DNA from: Cytophagales bacterium
GTDB lineage: Bacteria > Bacteroidota > Bacteroidia > Cytophagales > Flammeovirgaceae
DNA: 64,000 nucleotides
Reading direction: 5' to 3'
Assembly (NCBI GenBank): GCA_025056215.1
Contig: JANWWC010000004.1
Span: 62,001 to 126,000 of the forward strand
Shown: piece by piece, positions 807 to 25,713 of the stretch
Position numbering within the stretch: position 1 is the stretch's first letter
Layout: each line of letters begins with the position of its first letter
Position numbers and translations under genes: made by a program
The notes under the pieces: model-generated
Told to the model about the DNA's origin: nothing
Seen by the model: only the letters and a program-made list of their open reading frames with translations
Database searches by the model: none

Positions 807-1190
807 TTATTCGTTGTGGAGTACTTTCATGTTGATAGGCAAGTTGATGATTTCCTTAAAATCCATACCCGATTCGAGCATGTCTTCGTCGTCTTCTTCG
901 TAGTACCAATCTACTTCTACTTTGTAACCTTTTTGTTGGATTTCTTCTAAACGACGAAACACTTCAACTAGGCATTTAGAAGAGCTTGTGTTAAAATATT
1001 CTAACTTTACTTCGAAAACAGTAACAGCGCGAGGTTGTTTCATGTATTGTTCCAGCCAATCGTAGAGAGGTTTGTAAAACTCTATTGAATTTTCTGGAAT
1101 AGAACGCCCTGCTAAAATCAATTTTCCTGCTTTGGCATCAAAAAATACCAAAGGTGTTTTAGATGTTTCAGCTAAATGAAGATTCTCCAT
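807..1190 (-). CDS. SiaC-like (DUF1987) phosphorylation-switch protein
   Basis: The 127-residue protein matches the SiaC/DUF1987 family, small proteins that are phosphorylated by the HATPase-type kinase SiaB and dephosphorylated by a PP2C phosphatase (SiaA) in Pseudomonas, where they control a diguanylate cyclase. The segment EYFNTSSSK holds the threonine aligned with the SiaC phosphosite, and it is residue 68 here, the same number reported for P. aeruginosa SiaC. The N-terminal half carries the hydrophobic strand LVFFDAKAGKLILAG, and the C-terminus is acidic (DWYYEEDDEDM). It lies 17 nt after the SiaB-like kinase and 8 nt before fabH. Family assignment is confident; the downstream target in this organism is unknown. 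Confidence 0.85.
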   Translation of the reverse strand: MENLHLAETSKTPLVFFDAKAGKLILAGRSIPENSIEFYKPLYDWLEQYMKQPRAVTVFEVKLEYFNTSSSKCLVEVFRRLEEIQQKGYKVEVDWYYEEDDEDMLESGMDFKEIINLPINMKVLHNE

Positions 1191-1207: not shown

Positions 1208-1780
1208 TTATTCTGAGCTTAACGATATTTTTACCTTTAAAGTAAAAAAAGAGAAATCACGATCTGGAACTTTCTCAAACTGATATTCTAATTGTTTGCC
1301 AGATCTGCGAGCAATATCTAAAAATCCGAGCCCTGCGCCTCCTTTTGCCGAAAATTCTCCGTTATTGAGCGCCTCTCTGTAGGTATTTTTGATTTCCTCG
1401 AGCGACATGCGACAAATACTCTCTAAGCGCGATTTTAATGCTATGGTGTCTTTTTGGGCAATATAATTTCCGATAATAATTTCGTAGCCTTCGTCAGTTT
1501 TTAATAGCAAAAATAAGATAGCATCTAAATCTTCTAAGATGTACTCTTGCAAGGTTTTAATATCAAGGTGATGATAAATATTTTGCAACAATTCAACTAC
1601 AATCGTGTATACTTTTCTTCTTAGCTTGGCATGAGGCTCTAAGTATTTTATTTTGTTATCCACAATAGAAAGTATGGTGTCTAACAATTCGTTAGATGCC
1701 GAACCCTTATAAGCCAAAACAATGTTTTTTGACTGTAGAGACCGATAGTGTTGAATTGAATTGTCCAATATAGAAATCAA
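1208..1780 (-). CDS. SiaB-like HATPase protein kinase (DUF6272)
   Basis: This 190-residue protein resembles SiaB, a GHKL-fold kinase that phosphorylates SiaC. The ATP-binding N-box is ELLQNIYHH (residues 63-71) and the glycine-rich lid is KGGAGLGF (146-153). No membrane segment or sensor domain is present, so the protein is cytosolic. The start is a TTG at 1780; no ATG was found upstream in frame, and the next candidates would cut into the fold. It is the first gene of a run siaB-siaC-fabH. A cognate PP2C-type phosphatase is not adjacent, but one with a SpoIIE-type domain is encoded at 20997-23627; whether it acts on this pair is speculation. Confidence 0.82.
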   Translation of the reverse strand: MISILDNSIQHYRSLQSKNIVLAYKGSASNELLDTILSIVDNKIKYLEPHAKLRRKVYTIVVELLQNIYHHLDIKTLQEYILEDLDAILFLLLKTDEGYEIIIGNYIAQKDTIALKSRLESICRMSLEEIKNTYREALNNGEFSAKGGAGLGFLDIARRSGKQLEYQFEKVPDRDFSFFTLKVKISLSSE

Positions 1781-14571: not shown

Positions 14572-15552
14572 ATGTTAAATTGTATTGTTTTCTTGAAGTG
14601 GCGTAGAAAGTTTTGCTTAGGTCTCAACCTCGTCTCGTTTTTCGCTTTTGCGCAACAAGAAGCTCAGCTTACTCAATTTGTTTTTCATCAGCACTATTTT
14701 AATGTAGCATGCGCTGGCATTAGTAGAGCATATTCAGAAGCGCAGTTCATTCACCGCATGCAATATCTTGGATACACTACTACTTTAGATGCTAATCTTC
14801 CTCCTACTACGCAGATTTTTTCAGTAACTTCTCCTTTTACTGCGTACAATATAGGAGTAGGAGGTTTATTTGCTAACGATCGATTTGGACCTCTTACTAA
14901 ACAAAAAGCATTATTTTCTTTAGCATATCAGTTTAAAATCCGAAATGAGAATATTTTAGCTGTGGGAGCTGGCCTAGGAGCTTTTTCTTTTGCGCTTAAT
15001 AATGATTTATTGCGTTTTGTAGATCCTCATGATAGGTACGCTTCTTATGCAGGAGTACAAACACAAACAAAACCTCTTTATAGAATGGGAGCTTTTTATC
15101 AAACATCTTATTTTTATACGGGTGTTTCTGTCAATCAACTTCTTCCTACCACTTTCGATTTAGGTACAGGGAATGTGTATCATTCGACTAATCAACACAT
15201 TTATTATATAGTAGGATTTCATAGAATGATTTTGCCAAATTTTAAAATTTCTCCTGCTGCCCTAGTAAAATTTGATAGAAAAGTCGTTTCAATAGAAGGC
15301 GGAATGGTTGCTACTTATTTAGAAAAATTATTTTTAGGCCTTTTTTGGCGAGAATCAGATGCGTTTTCAGCAATTGTAGGAATTTATCCTCTCAAAAGCA
15401 CACAGTTGCAATTTAGTTATGCGTTCGATTATGTATATCACTACCAAACAGCTAAAGCTCCTACCTCTCATGAAATCCTTTTGGCATACAAATTCGGAAC
15501 TGTGAAGCCCTTAGTGCGAACCATTATTCGAACTCCAAGATTTCGACATTAA
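14572..15552 (+). CDS. porP: PorP/SprF-family type IX secretion outer-membrane protein
   Basis: The 326-residue protein has an N-terminal signal segment ending around FFAFAQQEAQLTQF and then the PorP/SprF pattern: FHQHYFNVACAGISR near the start (usual family form YNPAYAG), GVGGLFANDRFGPLTKQKALF, LAVGAGLGAFSF and alternating beta strands to the C-terminus (ILLAYKFG). PorP/SprF proteins sit in the outer membrane and connect the T9SS to surface substrates. Its position directly before gldK-gldL-gldM-gldN copies the porP-porK-porL-porM-porN order of P. gingivalis. Confidence 0.88.
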   Translation: MLNCIVFLKWRRKFCLGLNLVSFFAFAQQEAQLTQFVFHQHYFNVACAGISRAYSEAQFIHRMQYLGYTTTLDANLPPTTQIFSVTSPFTAYNIGVGGLFANDRFGPLTKQKALFSLAYQFKIRNENILAVGAGLGAFSFALNNDLLRFVDPHDRYASYAGVQTQTKPLYRMGAFYQTSYFYTGVSVNQLLPTTFDLGTGNVYHSTNQHIYYIVGFHRMILPNFKISPAALVKFDRKVVSIEGGMVATYLEKLFLGLFWRESDAFSAIVGIYPLKSTQLQFSYAFDYVYHYQTAKAPTSHEILLAYKFGTVKPLVRTIIRTPRFRH

Positions 15553-15582
15553 CAATAAAAAAAACATAAATTCATGATAAAT

Positions 15583-15615
15583 TTTGCTTATTTGGTTTCA
15601 TTTTTGCTAAAATTG
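15583..15615 (+). promoter_or_regulatory. Possible promoter for gldK
   Basis: A TTTG (15583-15586) is separated by 21 bases from TAAAATTG (15608-15615), one mismatch from the Bacteroidota TAnnTTTG -7 element. The 116 nt gap before gldK would give a leader of about 50 nt. Weak by sequence alone. Confidence 0.3.
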
Positions 15616-15668
15616 TTTTTGAATCGTATTATGTAAGACTGGAAACTAAAGAAGCTTAACTCGTTAAG

Positions 15669-16715
15669 ATGATGACTCAACTTAATTTAACATTTGCTCG
15701 CCTAACAATCATGATAGCTGTAGCGCTATCAATACAAGGATGCAAGCGCGGAGGAGACCTCTCAGAAGCAGGAGAGCTTTATCCCACCCCACGCGAAGGA
15801 TGGCAACAGGTAGTGCCTTACGGAATGGTGGTAGTTCCTCCTGGTACTTTTCATATGGGGCAAGCTGATGAAGATATCACCTCCTCTAAAATTAACCTCA
15901 ACAAACAAGTCACTATTGGAGGATTTTATATGGACGATACAGAAATTACTAATAACGAGTATCGCATGTTTATTCAAAAAGCTAAAGAAATGTCCGCTCA
16001 AGGGGATACCTCCTGGACGATGACAGAGGACGAGATTATGGAGCAGTTATATCCAGATACAGTAGTTTGGATTAACGATTTCGCTTATCATATGGGAGAC
16101 CCTCTTACCAAATATTACTATGACCACCCTGCTTTTGACAACTATCCAGTAGTGGGGGTCACTTGGTTTGCTGCTAAAAAATTCTGTGAATGGAGAACTC
16201 TTTATCTTAATAACTATCGAATTGAGCAAGGGCAATTTCCAATGCCTAACTTCCGCTTGCCTTCAGAAGCTGAATGGGAATATGCCTATCGTGGAGGGCG
16301 TGATATGGCAAAGTTTCCTTGGGGAGGTCCTTATGTGCGCAATGCAAAAGGTTGTTCTTTAGGAAATTTCAAACCAGGAAGAGGAAATTATTATGATGAT
16401 GGGTATGCTTACACTGCACCTGTTGCATCCTACTTTGCAAACGAGTATGGTTTATACGATATGTTTGGAAATGTAGCTGAGTGGTGTGAAGATGCTTATC
16501 ATCCTGCTAGCTTTCCAATTGTGTGGGACATAAATCCTACTTACTATGACGAAAACGAACCTCGCAAGATTGTTCGTGGAGGCTCTTGGAAAGATATAGA
16601 GTTCTATACTGAATCAGGTACGCGTTCTTATGAGTTTCAAGATCAGTCGCGCTCCTTTATAGGTTTTCGTTGTGTAATGACCTACTTAGGACGTTCTGCT
16701 GGAACTGAATTTTAA
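15669..16715 (+). CDS. gldK: T9SS/gliding lipoprotein GldK (PorK)
   Basis: GldK is an outer-membrane lipoprotein that forms a periplasmic ring with GldN at the base of the type IX secretion system. The signal peptide ends in the lipobox LSIQGC with Cys25. The rest is a formylglycine-generating-enzyme-like fold: MVVVPPGTFHMGQADE, MDDTEITNNEYRMF, PVVGVTWFAAKKFCEWR, FRLPSEAEWEYAYRGG, GLYDMFGNVAEWCEDAYH and the closing FIGFRCV. The 348-residue length is normal for the family. It is the first of four consecutive gld genes. Confidence 0.97.
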   Translation: MMTQLNLTFARLTIMIAVALSIQGCKRGGDLSEAGELYPTPREGWQQVVPYGMVVVPPGTFHMGQADEDITSSKINLNKQVTIGGFYMDDTEITNNEYRMFIQKAKEMSAQGDTSWTMTEDEIMEQLYPDTVVWINDFAYHMGDPLTKYYYDHPAFDNYPVVGVTWFAAKKFCEWRTLYLNNYRIEQGQFPMPNFRLPSEAEWEYAYRGGRDMAKFPWGGPYVRNAKGCSLGNFKPGRGNYYDDGYAYTAPVASYFANEYGLYDMFGNVAEWCEDAYHPASFPIVWDINPTYYDENEPRKIVRGGSWKDIEFYTESGTRSYEFQDQSRSFIGFRCVMTYLGRSAGTEF

Positions 16716-16804
16716 TCTCTTTATAATTTATTCATTCTTTATTTTATTATATTTTTCTTATTATTGACCTTAAGATTTATTTAAAACTCTAAACAATCAA
16801 AAAG

Positions 16805-17617
16805 ATGGCTCAAATTCATGAATCTGGCTTACAGAAGTTTTATCGCGTAGTGGTTCCTAAAGTAACAAGCTTAGGAGCATCGTTAGTGGTTGTAGGTGCA
16901 ATGTTTAAAATCATGCACTGGCCAGGAGCAGGTGTGATGCTTGTGATTGGCTTAAGTACAGAAGCATTTTTGTTCTTTTTAGGAATTTTTCAGCCCCCTG
17001 CTCACCCTGAAGTGCATTATCACTGGGAAAATGTGTATCCAGAGTTATTGGATAATACTAAAAAATCTGGTGGCAAAAAAGACGACCCTACTAAGTCACT
17101 ACAAACGATGGTAGGATTTGATAAACTTCTTGCAGAAGCGAATCTTTCGGTAGATACTATTAAAAACTTTGGTAACGGTATTAAGCAACTTACTGATTCT
17201 GTTACTAAAATGAAAGATATTACAGAAGCATCTGTTGCAACTTCAGGCTATACCACTTCTTTAAAAGAGGCTACTAAATCTATCAGCGATTTAAACAAAG
17301 CTTATGCTGCTACGGTCGCTGCTATGAATGAAATGGCGAATGCTTCAAAAGATGCTAAAGAGTATCATGCTCAAATTCAAACTATTACTAAAAATCTCGG
17401 TGCTCTGAACGCTGTTTATGAAATGGAACTTAAGGATGCTAATAGCCACTTAAAAGCAATGAATAAGTTTTATGCTAATCTAACAGTGGCGATGGAAAGC
17501 ATGTCTGAAGCAAGCAAAGAGTCAGCTCTCTTTAAAGAACAAATGTCGAAGCTAACAACCAACCTTACTAACTTGAATAAAGTATATGGTAATATGTTAG
17601 CTGCAATGAAAGGTTAA
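16805..17617 (+). CDS. gldL: T9SS/gliding motor protein GldL (PorL)
   Basis: GldL is the inner-membrane subunit of the GldLM proton-driven motor that powers type IX secretion and gliding. Two transmembrane helices occupy roughly residues 20-37 and 42-62, holding MFKIMHWPGAGVML (Lys35, His38) and STEAFLFFLG with the membrane-buried Glu53, the type of residue proposed to carry protons. The cytoplasmic remainder is helical and contains related segments ending AAMNEMANASK, VAMESMSEASK and NMLAAMKG, i.e. an internal repeat of about 50-60 residues. The length, 270, is slightly above Flavobacterium GldL. Confidence 0.97.
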   Translation: MAQIHESGLQKFYRVVVPKVTSLGASLVVVGAMFKIMHWPGAGVMLVIGLSTEAFLFFLGIFQPPAHPEVHYHWENVYPELLDNTKKSGGKKDDPTKSLQTMVGFDKLLAEANLSVDTIKNFGNGIKQLTDSVTKMKDITEASVATSGYTTSLKEATKSISDLNKAYAATVAAMNEMANASKDAKEYHAQIQTITKNLGALNAVYEMELKDANSHLKAMNKFYANLTVAMESMSEASKESALFKEQMSKLTTNLTNLNKVYGNMLAAMKG

Positions 17618-17650
17618 TTTTGAAAGTGTTAAATTAAAACTTTAGAAAAA

Positions 17651-19279
17651 ATGGCAGGTGGTAAATTAACGCCTCGTCAGGCGATGATTAATATGATGTA
17701 CCTTGTTCTCACAGCCCTTTTGGCATTGCAAGTGAGTAACTCGGTACTGGACAAGTTTATCTTTATAGACCAAAGTCTGCAGCACTCCTACAAACTCATG
17801 ATGGATGCTAACGATAGGCAAATAGGAGGCATTAAAATGGTAGTGGAAAAAAATGGCAACCGTCCTGAGGATGTTGCAGTACTGAAGGCAGCAGAAGAAG
17901 TGAAAAAACTTACTAAGGAATTGGAGACATACATAGGTGATGTGCGTGAAGAAATTGTAAAGCGTACTGGAGGAAGAACGGAAGATGGGAAATTAGTAGG
18001 CGCAAAAGACTATGATAAGCAAATGGCTTACACTCTTGGACCTGAAGGTTCAAAGAGTGGAGAAGCTTATACCATGAAAAGAAAGATTGAGGAATACATT
18101 GCTAATCTGGAAAGAATTGCAGCAAGTGTAAAAATGGCTAAGGATACTACCGTTTTGAAGTTAGATCCTATGACACTTGACGCAAAAGATATGCCAGAGT
18201 TTGCCAAAGACCAAGACCAAAGAAACAAAGACTGGGCCTATTTAAATTTCGATCATACTCCTACAGTTGCTTGTATGGCTGTTATCAGTCAGATTCAAAA
18301 TGAAATTGCCCAAAGAGAGCAAAAAACAATTGAGTACTTGGCTTCAAAGATTGGTGCGAAGGATATTAAATTCGATAGGGTATTTGCTGTAGTAAGTCCA
18401 CGCTCTAGGATCGTTGCAGCAGGAACAGAATACGAAGCTGAAATGTTTATTGCAGCATCTTCTAGCGGAATTGTTCCTCGCATGACATCTTCTGTAGGTC
18501 CTGTTAAAGTAGAAGATGGCAAAGGAAAAATTAAGTTCATTGCATCGGGAAGTAACTATGATGCTGACGGAAATGAGAGAAAGCAATGGACTGGCTCTAT
18601 TACTATCAGTACCGCTTTTGGGGATACAACTTTTCAAGTAAAAGAAGAATATATTGTAGCAAAGCCTGTTATACAAGTACAAGCAGCCGCCGTTTCAGCA
18701 TTGTATTTGAATTGTGGTAATGAGCTTAATATTCAGGTTCCTGCATTGGGTTCTGCATATGATCCCAAATTTACAGCTGATGGCGCTGAGGTTATTCAAG
18801 GTGCTAAAAAAGGTGTTATTACTGTAGTGCCTAACAAAGCCGAGGTTGCTATTTCTGTGTATAGTTCTGGCAACTTACTCGGAGTAGAGAAGTTCAAAGT
18901 AAAGAAGATTCCAGATCCTACAGCGATCGCCAGAAATGGAAATAAGGAAATTGATTTGAAGAATGGTGTAAGTCTCGCACAAATTCCTCGTTCGATCAAT
19001 ATTTTGATGAAGCCCGATGCGAGCTTCGCAGAGTTTCTTCCTAAAGATGCGCGTTATAAAGCAACGGAGTGGGAAATTACGCTTGCTCGCGGTAAGAGAG
19101 CGATTTCTACTAAAAAAGTAACCTCTGATGAAGTGAACATCACCGATATGGCTGCGCAAGCAAAAGAAGGCGACCGTTTTGTGATTGAAATTAAGAGCGT
19201 AAAACGCATGAACTTTAAAAATGCTGTAGAAGACGTGAAGAGTTTTAACAACCCGATTATAAACATTCCTATAAACTAA
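17651..19279 (+). CDS. gldM: T9SS/gliding motor protein GldM (PorM)
   Basis: GldM partners GldL in the inner membrane and spans the periplasm to push on the outer-membrane ring. The protein starts MAGGKLTPRQAMINMMYLVLTALLALQVSN, the hallmark N-terminal helix that inserts through the GldL pentamer, then a long helical domain (residues about 45-220) and beta domains (about 225-542) beginning near FDRVFAVVSPRSRIVAAG and including GSNYDADGNERKQWTG. The N-terminal 542-residue architecture agrees with four periplasmic domains. The gene follows gldL by 33 nt and precedes gldN by 8 nt. Confidence 0.97.
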   Translation: MAGGKLTPRQAMINMMYLVLTALLALQVSNSVLDKFIFIDQSLQHSYKLMMDANDRQIGGIKMVVEKNGNRPEDVAVLKAAEEVKKLTKELETYIGDVREEIVKRTGGRTEDGKLVGAKDYDKQMAYTLGPEGSKSGEAYTMKRKIEEYIANLERIAASVKMAKDTTVLKLDPMTLDAKDMPEFAKDQDQRNKDWAYLNFDHTPTVACMAVISQIQNEIAQREQKTIEYLASKIGAKDIKFDRVFAVVSPRSRIVAAGTEYEAEMFIAASSSGIVPRMTSSVGPVKVEDGKGKIKFIASGSNYDADGNERKQWTGSITISTAFGDTTFQVKEEYIVAKPVIQVQAAAVSALYLNCGNELNIQVPALGSAYDPKFTADGAEVIQGAKKGVITVVPNKAEVAISVYSSGNLLGVEKFKVKKIPDPTAIARNGNKEIDLKNGVSLAQIPRSINILMKPDASFAEFLPKDARYKATEWEITLARGKRAISTKKVTSDEVNITDMAAQAKEGDRFVIEIKSVKRMNFKNAVEDVKSFNNPIINIPIN

Positions 19280-19287
19280 AGTCAATT

Positions 19288-20157
19288 ATGTTGCGAAAAG
19301 TTGCAGTTTCTTTATCGTTCTCATTCTTATCTCTTGTGCTTTTTGCACAAGAGATGGATGATAATGGGCATAATTTCAATTCTGTGCGCCCTATTCGACG
19401 TGCTGACATCATGTTCAAGCGAACTATTTGGTATTCAATTGATTTGAGAGAAAAGCAGAACGAGCCTTTTTTTGCTGTGAATAATGAAATTTCTAAAATT
19501 ATTATAGATGCAGTGCGCGCTGGTGTTCTCAGACCCTTCCGCAATGACTCTCTTACCTCGCGCCTTACAAGAGATGAATTTTTGGAAAACCTGAAGATAC
19601 CAGGTGCTGACGAAGGGCTTTCGGAAGAAGACATCGCGATGGGTTTTGGAGGAGGTGATGATGCTTTTGGAGGCGATAGCTGGGGAGGAGATAGTGGATG
19701 GGGTGGTGGAGGAGATAGCAAATCTAAAGATGCGGCAGCTGATGAATTTTTCCCTAAGCAAATTTACTTACTTGAAATTAAGGAAGATCTGATTTTTGAC
19801 AGAAAAAGAAGCAGAATGTATCACGATATCCAATCTGTTAAATTGATTATTCCAGGAGATTTGTATCCTACTGGCATTGATAAAGAATTAGCTACCTTTT
19901 CTTACAAAGAACTCGTGGAAAATGTTTTTAAAGACAACCCACAGGCAGTTTGGTTCAATCCACAAAATACTGCTGAACATCGCAACCTTCAAGACGCTTT
20001 TGATTTGTTAATGCAATCTGGAAGGATAATTAAGTATTCAAATCCTAAAGATAAAATGATTGTAGACATGTATGGCGACGGAGAGCAAGCTTTAGGGAAA
20101 TCTTACGAATACAAGTATAAACTTGTAGATTATGAATCGGAAGTTTGGTGCTACTAA
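19288..20157 (+). CDS. gldN: T9SS/gliding ring protein GldN (PorN) with a Gly/Asp/Trp-rich insert
   Basis: GldN is a periplasmic protein that forms the GldK/GldN ring. The 289-residue protein has a signal peptide (through LVLFAQEMDD) and typical segments VRPIRRADIMFKRTIWYSIDLREK, IIDAVRAGVLRPF, YLLEIKEDLIFDRKRSRMYH and LATFSYKELVENVF. Between about residues 113 and 147 there is a glycine/aspartate/tryptophan-rich stretch containing repeated GGD and GWGGG units, unlike the rest of the sequence; it probably forms a flexible loop. The gene ends 22 nt before a strong terminator. Confidence 0.95.
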   Translation: MLRKVAVSLSFSFLSLVLFAQEMDDNGHNFNSVRPIRRADIMFKRTIWYSIDLREKQNEPFFAVNNEISKIIIDAVRAGVLRPFRNDSLTSRLTRDEFLENLKIPGADEGLSEEDIAMGFGGGDDAFGGDSWGGDSGWGGGGDSKSKDAAADEFFPKQIYLLEIKEDLIFDRKRSRMYHDIQSVKLIIPGDLYPTGIDKELATFSYKELVENVFKDNPQAVWFNPQNTAEHRNLQDAFDLLMQSGRIIKYSNPKDKMIVDMYGDGEQALGKSYEYKYKLVDYESEVWCY

Positions 20158-20179: not shown

Positions 20180-20210
20180 AAAACCTGTGCTTCGAGAGAA
20201 CAGGTTTTTT
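20180..20210 (+). terminator. Intrinsic terminator after gldN
   Basis: Perfect 9-bp stem AAAACCTGT/ACAGGTTTT with an 11-base loop, followed by a T-run (TTTTTT). It lies 22 nt after the gldN stop, between convergent gldN and the GAF gene. On the opposite strand the stem is followed by TTTTCACTTT, so it may also work for the minus strand. Confidence 0.85.
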
Positions 20211-20217
20211 ATTATTT

Positions 20218-20925
20218 TTACCTATTTTTGATACTTTCATAAAATAAATCTTTATCATTTTTACTTTCTGGTTCTTTTTTCTCAAAGAAATTTCTGAGAA
20301 TATCTTGCTGCTCTTGCATAGCTTCTTTTGCCAAATTTATGCTCTCATATATTTTTTGAAGTTGTTCTTGTTTCACGCTATTTAAATCAAGATATAAGAA
20401 TTTGTTTTTCGAAATTTCTTTTTCCAGTTCTTTTTGATTTCTTCTGAGCTCTAATTGAAAGATTACTTGTTGAGCTAATGTTCTCAGCGCTAACTTTTGA
20501 GCATCAGATAGTTTTCTTTTTTTAGTATCGATAACGCATAGCGTTCCAATATTATAACCTTGAGGAGTTTTTAAAGGCATGCCAGCATAAAATCTAACAT
20601 AAGGTTCTCCTGTTACGTAAGGATTTTGTGAAAATCTTGCATCTTGAGTAGCATCTTCGATCTCAAAAATTTCGTCTTGTTGGATAGCATGCGTACAGAA
20701 GGATAGTTCTCTCGGGGTTTCTTGAATTTGAATTCCCACTTTTGCTTTGAACCATTGTCTTGATGAGTCAAGTAAGTTTACCAATGCAATAGGAGTCTGA
20801 CATATTTGAGAAGTAATTTTTGCTAAGTCGTTAAATACTTGTTCTTCTTCAGTATCTAATATTTCATATTTTAATAAGGCGTTTAGCCTTAAAGTTTCTT
20901 TTTGAGAGTCAGAATTATTAATCAT
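20218..20925 (-). CDS. GAF domain signalling protein
   Basis: The 235-residue cytosolic protein has a GAF domain over residues about 25-165 (DLAKITSQICQTPIALVNLLD, QWFKAKVGI, ELSFCTHAIQQ, FYAGMPLKTPQGYNIGTLCVID) and a coiled-coil C-terminus (LELRRNQKELEKEISKNK). Such proteins bind small ligands or nucleotides and commonly precede kinase or phosphatase partners. No output domain is present. The gene is 71 nt downstream of the TPR/PP2C gene on the same strand, so it may be the last member of a TonB receptor-PP2C-GAF transcription unit. Confidence 0.85.
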   Translation of the reverse strand: MINNSDSQKETLRLNALLKYEILDTEEEQVFNDLAKITSQICQTPIALVNLLDSSRQWFKAKVGIQIQETPRELSFCTHAIQQDEIFEIEDATQDARFSQNPYVTGEPYVRFYAGMPLKTPQGYNIGTLCVIDTKKRKLSDAQKLALRTLAQQVIFQLELRRNQKELEKEISKNKFLYLDLNSVKQEQLQKIYESINLAKEAMQEQQDILRNFFEKKEPESKNDKDLFYESIKNR

Positions 20926-20996
20926 AAAAAAATAGGTTTAGAGTTAAGAGAAATTACTATATAAAAAAACAAAGACTTATGACATTTTGTTTCTAA

Positions 20997-23627
20997 CTAG
21001 CCTATTTTTACTCCGACAACACAAACGTCATCAATTTGTTGATGAGTTCCAATCCAATCTTCGAGCGTATGCTCTAAAATGAGCTTTTGCTCTTCAAAAG
21101 GTTGTGTATGGATATCTGAGAGAAGTTTACGAAAGTTTTTACTCATAAATTTTCGATTATCAGGTCCACCGAAAGCATCTTGAAAACCATCGGTGTACAT
21201 ATAAATTGAATCTCCCTTTTCGAGTTGCAAAGTGTGGAGAGCATAGTCTATTAATTCAAGTTCCTGCTGTCCGCCAATAGGCTTGTTATCTCCTTTTAGA
21301 AAGATTTCTTGATGATTAGAAAACACAACAATAGGACTTTTAGCGCCAGCAAATTGCAATTGATATGAGCTATCAGATAGTAATTCCAGATGACAAATTG
21401 CAATGTCCATGCCGTCTCTTATTGTTTTTTCATCGTTTTGTTGATAAAGAAGTTTAGTAAGAGAATAGTTAAGAGTGGTAAGGATAAGGTCGGGTTGTCG
21501 TACTCCTCGCAAAAGGATAATATTATTAAGCAGTTCAATTCCGATTGTGCTCATGAAAGCACCTGGGACTCCGTGCCCTGTACAGTCAGCAACTGCAAAA
21601 GTGATAGCATTTCCCTTGGCATCTATCCAATAGAAATCTCCACTTACGATATCGCGAGGTTTGTAAAAAATAAAAGCATCGTTGAAAAACTTTCGAAAGT
21701 AACTTTCTGAAGGAAGAAGTGCTTTTTGAATTCGGCTTGCATAATTAATAGAAGAGAGAATATTAATATTTTTCTGTTCAATAATGTCGCGCTGTTGAGT
21801 AATATGACGATTAATTTTTTCTAATTCGTCTCGTTGTTGTTCGATTGTTTCCTTTGTGGCAGAAAGTTCTTCATAGCTTTGTCGAAGTTCTTCTTCATTA
21901 GCGAGAAGTTCAGCATTTTTTTCTTGAAGCTCAATTTGTTGTTTTTTAATTTCTTCATTTAAACGAGTAAGTTCCTTTCTACGTTGTTGAGAACGCATGT
22001 AGGCGTATATTACAAAAAGAAATAAAAGTGTTCCTAAAGCCATAACAAGTCTTGTATAAAACTGCGTCTTTTTCTGCTCTTGAATTTGGATTTCTTGCAG
22101 TTTTTGTTGGGCTTGTGCTAACTTAATAGCTTTTTCTTGTTCTCGCCGGATAGCCTCTTGCTCTCGGAGTTGGAGTGCTTGTTTCTCTTGCTGTTGTTGA
22201 AGGGCTAAAATCTCCTTATTACGTTTTTCAGCTTCGAGTTGTTGTTGAGCTAATAAAAGTGCTTGCTGAGCGCGTTCCTTTTCGAGTTTTTGTTTGCTCA
22301 AAAGTTGCTTTTGGAGTTCCTGTTCTTTTTGAAGAAGTTGAAGTTGTTGCTCTTTAAGTCGTAAGTCTTGCTGTTGTTTTTCTGTTTCAAGTATCATTTG
22401 TTTGAGAGCAAGTTCTTGTTTTTCTGTGTTAGCAATAAGCAGTTTAAAAGAGCTTTCTTGTTTTTCGGCTTCTAATTGTGCGGTGTTTTGTTGTTTTTGT
22501 TGTAAAGAAAGCAGTTCTATTTGCTTTTGGTTTACCTCAATAAGTTTTTGTTGATAGTATTTATAAAGGTCAATACTTCCCTCATTAGAATAAATTTCAC
22601 TCAAAATTTTGTAGCTAGCAGCTAAAATATCATATGCTTCTAGGGGTTCAGCGATTTTGATTGCACTTTCTGCAAAACTAATAGCATCTTCCATTTTTTT
22701 ATGATAAAAAGCATTAATGGCCAGATAGTTATCTGTTTCGGCCGTGCTTAACATATCTTTGTTCTGTAAAAAAATTTCTCTCGCTTTTTCATATTGACGA
22801 CGAGCATTTTCAAATTGCCTTTGATTTGTGTAAGTAATACCAGCGTTATTAAGAATGATTGCCTTGGTACGACTATAAAAAGTAATGTCATTTAGCAAAT
22901 GAATTGCTTTTTCAAAAAACAAACCTGCTTCGTATTGTTTTCCTTGTTTTTGAGATAAGTATCCTAAATTGTTAAAACAATAAGCTTCCTCTATTTTGTC
23001 TTGGTTTTCTTCGGCGAGTTTTTTGAGTTGCAAGGTATAAGAATGTGCTTTCTCAAAGTTGTTTGAGTTATTTGATAAAATAATAAGTCTTCTTAAAATG
23101 AATCGCTGTTTTTCGTAATTTTTTTGTTGAGCATAGAGAGACAATACTTTTTGATAGTTGTCTTCTGCTTCGGTGAATTTTTTGAGTCGAGAGCACACTA
23201 ATGCGAGATTTTCATACATTTCTGCTGGTGGCTGGAGATAATTTTCCAAGTATTTTTTTTCTGCTAACTGTAAGTTTTCGAGAGCTTTTTCATGGAGTTC
23301 TCTTTGAAGATAAAGTAATCCTATTTTATGGTAGCTCTCTGCTAATAGAGAGTAGTATTTTTGATTTTCAGATAAATAAGCGCTTTGCAAATATGTGTTA
23401 AGCGACTGCGAGAATTGCTGTTTGGCGCGGAAAATATCTCCTAAGAGTAAGTACGCTTTGATTTTTTCTTTAGGTTCAAGTTGAAAAAGATTTTCTTCTA
23501 ACAAAGTCTGTGCCTCGTCATACTGTGAAGTGTTATACAGATTTGTTGCTTGTTGTAAAAGGTGCTGTTGTCCTTTTAAGTAAAGACAGAAATGCAAGCA
23601 TAATAAAATCAAAAAAACTTTATGCAT
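20997..23627 (-). CDS. TPR / Gln-rich coiled-coil / transmembrane PP2C (SpoIIE-type) phosphatase
   Basis: The 876-residue protein begins with a signal sequence (MHKVFLILLCLHFCLYLKGQ), continues with about seven TPR units (residues 22-360; e.g. AEDNYQKVLSLYAQQKNYE, YCFNNLGYLSQKQGKQYEA), then a 160-residue coiled coil extremely rich in Gln, Leu, Lys and Glu, one transmembrane helix (VMALGTLLFLFVIYAYM, about 527-543), a second coiled coil, and a C-terminal SpoIIE-type PP2C domain. Phosphatase motifs VSGDFYWID, VADCTGHGVPGAFMS, YTDGFQDAFG and QIDDVCVVGV are intact. Topology implies a periplasmic TPR sensor and a cytoplasmic phosphatase. It starts one nucleotide after the TonB receptor stop codon, implying coupled translation. 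Confidence 0.92.
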   Translation of the reverse strand: MHKVFLILLCLHFCLYLKGQQHLLQQATNLYNTSQYDEAQTLLEENLFQLEPKEKIKAYLLLGDIFRAKQQFSQSLNTYLQSAYLSENQKYYSLLAESYHKIGLLYLQRELHEKALENLQLAEKKYLENYLQPPAEMYENLALVCSRLKKFTEAEDNYQKVLSLYAQQKNYEKQRFILRRLIILSNNSNNFEKAHSYTLQLKKLAEENQDKIEEAYCFNNLGYLSQKQGKQYEAGLFFEKAIHLLNDITFYSRTKAIILNNAGITYTNQRQFENARRQYEKAREIFLQNKDMLSTAETDNYLAINAFYHKKMEDAISFAESAIKIAEPLEAYDILAASYKILSEIYSNEGSIDLYKYYQQKLIEVNQKQIELLSLQQKQQNTAQLEAEKQESSFKLLIANTEKQELALKQMILETEKQQQDLRLKEQQLQLLQKEQELQKQLLSKQKLEKERAQQALLLAQQQLEAEKRNKEILALQQQQEKQALQLREQEAIRREQEKAIKLAQAQQKLQEIQIQEQKKTQFYTRLVMALGTLLFLFVIYAYMRSQQRRKELTRLNEEIKKQQIELQEKNAELLANEEELRQSYEELSATKETIEQQRDELEKINRHITQQRDIIEQKNINILSSINYASRIQKALLPSESYFRKFFNDAFIFYKPRDIVSGDFYWIDAKGNAITFAVADCTGHGVPGAFMSTIGIELLNNIILLRGVRQPDLILTTLNYSLTKLLYQQNDEKTIRDGMDIAICHLELLSDSSYQLQFAGAKSPIVVFSNHQEIFLKGDNKPIGGQQELELIDYALHTLQLEKGDSIYMYTDGFQDAFGGPDNRKFMSKNFRKLLSDIHTQPFEEQKLILEHTLEDWIGTHQQIDDVCVVGVKIG

Positions 23628-23628
23628 A

Positions 23629-25713
23629 CTAAAATCTGTATTGAAATGATAATGAAAATTGACGATTAAATACTGCTATGTTTGCGTGACCCCCATAAAA
23701 AGGTTGGATGATTTCGTATCTTGTATTAAAAATATTGTAACAAGTTATATTTAGAGCGCTATTTTGAATTATATCTTTGAATAAAATATTAAAATTAACA
23801 ACGGTAGTTGAAGGAAATAGCTGGTCTTTGGGAGTAGTAGGAGGTTCTGCATTAGGGTTATTGAGAAGCTCATTTTCATAATTTTGCATATCAGCATAAT
23901 ACTGGTAGGATTGTCCGAACCGACTGCTGAGCCACCAAACAGATGGAGAAAATGTAACTTTTTGATATGTATAAGCGATACCGCTATTAATTTTTTGAGA
24001 AGCCATTCCTATAAATGCGGTTTTTTCTTGATTAAGTAAAAATTCTGATGATAAGTTGCTCGGAAAGTTAAGAGCAGCATTTACGAAGCCTGTCCAGCTT
24101 TTGGATTTTAATAAAAGTTCTGCCTCTATTCCTCTTGTTTTGACTCTTCCTTCGTTTGTATAAGCGTTTAAATTGCCAATATAAGTAATAGCTTGTTGAA
24201 TATCAATCCAATAACTATTGATTCGAGCCGAAATGTTTTTGGTAAACTTATACCCAACTTCTATTTCGTAAGTAGAAGATGTTTCTGGGTGAAGTAGCTC
24301 TATAGTGTTAACTTCACTACTGTAAGCTTGAAATACTGTAGGAATTCGAAAAGCTTTTCCGTATAATGCTTTTAGATTGAGTTTTTTATCGAAATAAGAA
24401 ATTCCTATGCGCGGAGCTAAAGCGTTTCCATAGGTAGTGATTTCGTACCTTCCTCCGAAGGTAAGATTAAATCGATTAATTTTGATGATTCCTTGAGCAA
24501 GATTATAAAAACTTTCTGCGTATTGCGTAAATACTAATAAACTATCTTCCGCGTAGTTTCTACTTCTTAGGCCAGGTGTAAGATTAGTATTTGTGATAGA
24601 AGCAATATCTCGGAAGTATCCCGTTCCTACCCAAAGTTCTGTTCGACTAGAAGCTTTGAAATTTCCAATAATCTCTGTTTTGTAGCGACTCAATATCTGT
24701 CCTCCGATAGTTCCATATTGCTCATATATTATTTTACTGCCTGGCAGTACACTTGTTGCGATATTGTTTCCTCTGTTTAATTCTACATTGATATCTATTC
24801 CATATTTTTCTGATAGTTCGCGTTTGTAGCCTAAAAGAAAGTTGTTCATTTGATAATTAAGCTGTTCAGTATTCGCTGAATCTGGAGAAATATTAACAAG
24901 GGTAGTATGACCATCTAACCCGCTAAAATTAAAATTAGTGCGATTCCATTGAAAATAAATATTTTTATAGTCAGCTTTAAGAGTGGAATAATAAAAGTGG
25001 CGATAAGAAGTTTTTTCATTGAGCTTAAGTTCATTTCCGAAAAAATCTCTGTACAAATTTTGAGCTAGCGGACGGTAAGAAATTCCTAATAGAAAGCTTA
25101 TGTTTAAATCTTTATGTTCTGTTCCTATAGCGATTTGTCCTTGTCTTAAGAAGCCATCTTTTCCGATAATTCCTGCACTGCTTTGCAGTTCGATTCCTTT
25201 TAGTTGGTTTCCAGAAACTGTAATAATATTGATAACAGTCACTCCTGCAAATCCACCGTACAGTGCTGAGCCAGGTCCTCGAATAATTTCTACTCGCTCT
25301 ATCATGGAGGCTGGGATGGTACCAATAAAGTTATAGTTTCCATACCCTAAATCGTTGAGCATCAAACCGTTTAACATGATAAGGGCTTTACCTTCGTGAG
25401 CCCATATTCCTCGAAAACCTAAACCTACGATTTGATTAACATCTATGCCGAACTCAAAACCTGGAACCAAACGCAGTACATCAGCAATGTCTTGGCAACC
25501 ATATTTTTGAATTTCATTTCGGGTGATGACAGAGACAACAGAGGGCGCCTCCTCCAAAAATTGTTCTTTTTTGCTTGCTAAGCTAATTTTATTTGCTTCA
25601 TCTTGCTGTATTGAAGCAATATCTTGAATAGAAAGCCTTAGTATTTCGGTACTATCTTGTCCAGAAGCTACAACACTAATAAAAAAAGTAATCAAACAAA
25701 AAAAACATCTCAT
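23629..25713 (-). CDS. TonB-dependent outer-membrane receptor
   Basis: The 694-residue protein has a signal peptide (through VVASGQ), a short N-terminal segment, a plug domain from about residue 45 (LEEAPSVVSVITRNEIQKYG, DIADVLRLVPGFEFG, IERVEIIRGPGSALYGG), and a beta-barrel ending in the aromatic FSLSFQYRF typical of outer-membrane proteins. There is no carboxypeptidase-like or FecR-interaction extension of the usual length, so it is a plain receptor. The ligand is unknown; the plug reads like vitamin/siderophore-type receptors such as BtuB/CirA. It is followed with a 1-nt gap by the transmembrane PP2C gene, an unusual arrangement. Confidence 0.93.
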   Translation of the reverse strand: MRCFFCLITFFISVVASGQDSTEILRLSIQDIASIQQDEANKISLASKKEQFLEEAPSVVSVITRNEIQKYGCQDIADVLRLVPGFEFGIDVNQIVGLGFRGIWAHEGKALIMLNGLMLNDLGYGNYNFIGTIPASMIERVEIIRGPGSALYGGFAGVTVINIITVSGNQLKGIELQSSAGIIGKDGFLRQGQIAIGTEHKDLNISFLLGISYRPLAQNLYRDFFGNELKLNEKTSYRHFYYSTLKADYKNIYFQWNRTNFNFSGLDGHTTLVNISPDSANTEQLNYQMNNFLLGYKRELSEKYGIDINVELNRGNNIATSVLPGSKIIYEQYGTIGGQILSRYKTEIIGNFKASSRTELWVGTGYFRDIASITNTNLTPGLRSRNYAEDSLLVFTQYAESFYNLAQGIIKINRFNLTFGGRYEITTYGNALAPRIGISYFDKKLNLKALYGKAFRIPTVFQAYSSEVNTIELLHPETSSTYEIEVGYKFTKNISARINSYWIDIQQAITYIGNLNAYTNEGRVKTRGIEAELLLKSKSWTGFVNAALNFPSNLSSEFLLNQEKTAFIGMASQKINSGIAYTYQKVTFSPSVWWLSSRFGQSYQYYADMQNYENELLNNPNAEPPTTPKDQLFPSTTVVNFNILFKDIIQNSALNITCYNIFNTRYEIIQPFYGGHANIAVFNRQFSLSFQYRF

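Follow-up and report, generated by a model that had tools for sequence, protein, structure and literature searches.

On the minus strand of a 64,000-nucleotide stretch of a Cytophagales genome (hereafter the window), a TonB-dependent receptor gene is followed at once by the gene of a membrane-bound protein phosphatase. TonB receptors are the chief nutrient gates of these gliding bacteria and, to our knowledge, only a small number of pathways have been described for inward signalling from them. The question raised by the locus is whether the two genes form a signalling unit, with the receptor as the input of the phosphatase.

ORF calls and profile searches placed the receptor (694 aa: signal peptide, plug and presumed barrel) at 23629..25713, minus strand. 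Its stop codon (TAG) is followed by a single T and then by the ATG of the phosphatase gene (20997..23627, minus strand; 876 aa), a 1-nt spacing; the TPR/SpoIIE-PP2C assignment of the product was based on ORFs, profiles and a structure model. A stand-alone GAF protein (20218..20925, minus strand; 235 aa, with a C-terminal coiled coil) is encoded after a further 71 nt, and was identified by ORF and Pfam (GAF domain, E 2.2e-14). This is the layout described in an earlier note on this DNA: the ORFs matched, and the plug, TPR, SpoIIE and GAF domains were confirmed by Pfam and NCBIfam. In the interval that separates the GAF gene from gldN, which converges on it, a hairpin (AAACCTGT-loop-ACAGGTTT, then T-rich; 20181..20208, minus strand) was recognised by eye as a likely terminator; its loop is longer than the hairpin scan permits. 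Type IX secretion genes (PorP/SprF and gldKLMN, 14572-20157) lie downstream of the three genes and converge with them, and the upstream neighbour of the receptor encodes a TIGR00374 flippase-like membrane protein (NCBIfam). For the host genome (2.83 Mb, 99.5% complete), the nearest named relatives among those found belong to the Cytophagales, Raineya and MAGs of Microscillaceae being examples.

The plug domain PF07715 was detected in the receptor by Pfam (E 1.6e-18). The barrel model PF00593 gave no match at E 1e-3 in this protein and was matched in related paired receptors. The C-terminal residue is Phe, and orthologs of 33-39% identity were found at 12 related loci. The locus resembles FecA-FecR-FecI in that an outer-membrane TonB receptor gene stands beside the gene of an inner-membrane signalling protein. 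It differs in the partner, a protein phosphatase, and in the receptor itself: the Pfam search found no STN domain, and no FecR or sigma factor gene adjoins the receptor, whose neighbours encode the TIGR00374 protein, GldN and the GAF protein. Because STN and a neighbouring FecR/sigma are absent, the Fec route does not apply and Fec-type signalling was ruled out for this pair; the earlier note had likewise set the arrangement apart from the usual TonB signalling through FecR/sigma.

The phosphatase is composed, in order, of a signal peptide, a TPR superhelix (~20-350), a long coiled coil, a transmembrane helix (residues ~527-545) and a SpoIIE/PP2C domain (~640-876). Pfam matched SpoIIE (PF07228, E 7.9e-21) and several TPR families, and the protein has a hydrophobic N-terminus and a single transmembrane segment near residue 527. 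An AlphaFold2 model was built from 45 homologs (mean pLDDT 84.5): the TPR superhelix (residues ~20-370) and the C-terminal PP2C domain were predicted with confidence, and the long membrane-crossing helix at lower confidence. The topology put forward earlier, with periplasmic TPRs and a cytoplasmic SpoIIE/PP2C domain, fits both the transmembrane segment and the model. No YfiR domain was found in the phosphatase by Pfam; TPRs occupy its place, and a YfiR/HmsC-type sensor was rejected for this protein.

Several features place the catalytic domain in the SpoIIE/PP2C family: the SpoIIE domain itself, a DCTGHG motif and the metal-ligand aspartates (D659, D664, D681, D741, D813, D817, D866 and D867), which are invariant across the 45 homologs. 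The active-site residues are intact. Pseudomonas aeruginosa SiaA-PP2C (6k4e) was the sole phosphatase match by sequence (E 2.3e-35) and the best phosphatase match by fold (TM-score 0.88-0.89 by target length). The fold comparison also placed TPR superhelices, LGN among them, with the best solved relatives. The phosphatase domain is thus SiaA-like, with a score of 166.9 bits against the SiaA equivalog NF038263, for which the curated cut-off is 700.

The occurrence of the gene pair was surveyed in 390 genomes of the order. Loci were selected by phosphatase similarity only (no more than two candidates from each genome being scored, cut-off E 1e-90): 42 loci passed, three of them too close to a contig edge to score. 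A TonB receptor was the immediate same-strand upstream gene in 17 of the 39 scorable phosphatase homologs, a count that takes in the transposase-interrupted pair L100 and one pair with a longer gap (L090). The gaps were mostly -17 to +60 nt, and the upstream neighbours that were checked were confirmed as receptors by Pfam. The linked phosphatases span five families (f1, f2, f4, f15 and f22), and five extra pairs were found beyond the survey (L076, L101, L209, L216 and L217). The proposal in the earlier note had hung on such linkage in relatives, and it withstood this comparison.

The 2.83 Mb of the host genome contain 35 SpoIIE genes and 18 plug-domain genes, a crowding that could favour chance neighbours, and two pairs within this genome alone are only mildly unexpected (about 0.01). 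The background in relatives speaks against such an origin: a same-strand upstream TonB receptor was found for 2 of 207 other genes of the survey loci (~1%) and for none of 367 genes in stretches of the host genome. Receptor linkage also changed at least nine times on the catalytic-domain tree and is therefore not one inherited accident. With 17 of 39 against ~1%, on many separate branches, chance linkage of receptor and phosphatase was refuted by the survey, and we consider it extremely improbable. The pairing of receptor and phosphatase is genuine and recurs in Cytophagales. In a phylum-wide sample, which draws few members of the homolog-bearing families, no homolog was found at E 1e-75 beyond the window's genome. 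The open-access papers searched contained nothing relevant on a TonB receptor-SpoIIE pair, on YfiR with TonB receptors or on DUF4154 (a weak absence, subscription papers and preprints being outside its scope); as far as that literature shows, the pair is undescribed. At two loci (L232 and L233), a receptor gene lies between two SpoIIE genes, all on one strand.

The linkage is patchy. A receptor is lacking in the vicinity of many close homologs of the phosphatase, and in one genus (six loci: L220, L222-L224, L226 and L227) receptor linkage was zero. When the receptor served as the query, orthologous receptors turned up at 16 loci and the phosphatase lay downstream in only five, one of them with two inserted PDDEXK_2 transposase genes ahead of the phosphatase. 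In genome G093, the orthologous receptor is followed by two inserted transposase genes and then by an orthologous phosphatase, the best match to that of the window found anywhere. The two PDDEXK_2 transposase genes at L100:5177-7051, between orthologous receptor and phosphatase genes, are in tandem and share the same N-terminus.

The paired receptors are of varied types (mean identity 22%), and because of this diversity a single receptor-specific interface for all pairs is unlikely. Over 19 pairs, receptor distances correlated with those of the TPR region (r 0.28, p about 0.007; after removal of near-duplicates, r 0.22, p 0.017) and did not correlate with those of the catalytic domain (r 0.07-0.08). 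The result weakly favours the periplasmic part as the one adapted to the receptor, and it is the one observation that would point towards the earlier suggestion of TPRs sensing receptor occupancy. Such weak covariation, the great diversity of the receptors and the frequent lack of a nearby receptor beside close phosphatase homologs would also suit co-transcription without contact, in which the phosphatase would sense some other envelope cue (e.g. periplasmic peptides or stress) and would lie behind receptor genes only through controlling, or being controlled together with, the uptake of the same nutrient. We regard this as rather unlikely: the receptor-then-phosphatase order is repeated, with tiny gaps, in five families, and the host genome contains a second design in which a YfiR periplasmic domain is encoded beside a receptor.

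That second receptor-phosphatase pair (L049:6274-10473) encodes a SpoIIE protein whose N-terminal YfiR/HmsC domain replaces the TPRs, 39 nt behind a receptor different from that of the window. Within the order, a YfiR gene and then a GAF or histidine-kinase sensor gene come after many of the receptors related to that of the window. In NCBIfam, TOL_0244 is the name of a receptor and TOL_0243 that of a YfiR-like protein, and the two locus numbers are adjacent; the likeness lies in a receptor gene beside a periplasmic sensor, and at L049 YfiR is fused to SpoIIE. The window phosphatase differs in having TPRs and no YfiR, the YfiR/HmsC domain being present in its paralog at L049. In six Bacteroidota MAGs (L129, L130, L134, L135, L148 and L159), a SpoIIE gene is divergent from a TonB receptor gene; the receptor is followed by YfiR in each of these except L148.

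The target of SiaA and SiaB in P. aeruginosa is T68 of SiaC, for which the phosphorylated peptide is LLYLNTSSIK (PMC7647112). The host genome encodes eight SiaC proteins, at least six SiaB kinases and two STAS proteins, and the motif YFNT(S/A)SS is kept in 8/8 of the SiaC proteins. One of the eight, a phosphoprotein of the SiaC family in which the YFNTSS motif is conserved (807..1190, minus strand), lies in the window beside a SiaB-family protein kinase (DUF6272; 1208..1780, minus strand; 144.9 bits, subfamily cut-off 85). The former is a candidate substrate of the phosphatase and the latter a candidate kinase for its antagonist. The two genes are ~19 kb from the receptor-phosphatase pair and outside its operon, and siaB and siaC are absent beside the pair, in contrast to the SiaABCD operon. 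In the close phosphatase homologs L200 and L202, SiaB and SiaC genes come next in the same operon, and these two homologs share a clade (99% SH-aLRT) with the receptor-linked L203 and with L049 of the host genome. The window phosphatase falls outside this clade, and its substrate is therefore inferred by kinship. The earlier suggestion that the phosphatase dephosphorylates an antagonist fits this SiaA/SiaC partner-switch kinship.

The resemblance to SiaA/B/C/D of P. aeruginosa consists in the membrane PP2C phosphatase, for which 6k4e is the closest solved phosphatase domain, and in the SiaB kinase and SiaC families of the host genome, with their conserved NTSS motif. The window phosphatase differs in its TPR superhelix as sensor, in the place of its gene, which follows that of a TonB receptor instead of lying with SiaB/C, and in its score, far under the SiaA equivalog cut-off. 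The genome search found no GGDEF protein in the host, hence no SiaD; a c-di-GMP output was rejected and, for the same reason, a SiaD-like output is unlikely.

The same architecture could act instead on a STAS anti-anti-sigma substrate, in the style of SpoIIAA/RsbV, with a sigma factor as output. STAS proteins are the classical targets of SpoIIE-type phosphatases (PMC11418112) and the genome encodes two of them, but they are outnumbered by the SiaC proteins (8 vs 2), the catalytic domain is nearest to SiaA, and linkage to SiaB-SiaC genes is seen in close homologs; we judge a STAS substrate improbable. With SpoIIE/RsbU of Bacillus, the window phosphatase shares the SpoIIE-family PP2C domain, the metal-binding aspartates and the partner-switch logic; it differs in its sensor, its receptor linkage and its likely substrate, SiaC and not STAS. 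The partner-switching repertoire of the host genome is large, with 35 SpoIIE phosphatases against eight SiaC and two STAS proteins.

The reading that we prefer is SiaA-like partner switching in which a TonB receptor is likely to be the input. In such a two-gene envelope signalling unit, the receptor would handle its ligand at the outer membrane, and the periplasmic TPR superhelix would read the state of the receptor, via contact or via the receptor cargo. The signal would be passed along the coiled coil and the transmembrane helix to the cytoplasm, where the SpoIIE/PP2C domain would dephosphorylate a SiaC-family phosphoprotein that had been phosphorylated by a SiaB-family kinase. SiaC would then change partner and alter an output. 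For this chain as a whole, from receptor through TPRs and phosphatase to a SiaC switch, we see the chances as evenly balanced; its putative steps are that the TPRs touch the receptor, that SiaC is the substrate, and that an output follows. The broader proposal is more tentative, and we hold it to be somewhat short of an even chance: an additional inward TonB route apart from FecR/sigma, with a SiaC output other than c-di-GMP, reused with different receptors across Cytophagales. A recurrent pair of this kind would add Ser/Thr partner switching to the signalling routes of TonB receptors and would supply inputs for the many orphan SpoIIE phosphatases of Bacteroidota (35 here, against about 10 known substrate-type proteins). 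It also raises the question of which process SiaC governs when the genome has no diguanylate cyclase.

The GAF gene was treated separately. It is probably co-transcribed with the pair in the window. Among the surveyed loci and 19 relatives, no GAF gene follows a receptor-phosphatase pair elsewhere, and the GAF homologs of those 19 relatives are mostly parts of longer open frames; GAF was rejected as a conserved third member. The trio that the earlier note had presented as one unit is thus reduced to its first two genes, the pair being recurrent and the GAF gene local, and chance neighbourhood is the likely explanation of the position of the latter. Within the genome, the paralog nearest to it is the GAF portion of a GAF-SpoIIE phosphatase, at 56% identity, which hints at a possible link with SpoIIE signalling and no more. 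Elsewhere in the window's genome (L041:6398-9883), the gene of a GAF-containing sensor-like protein lies immediately upstream of a SpoIIE gene.
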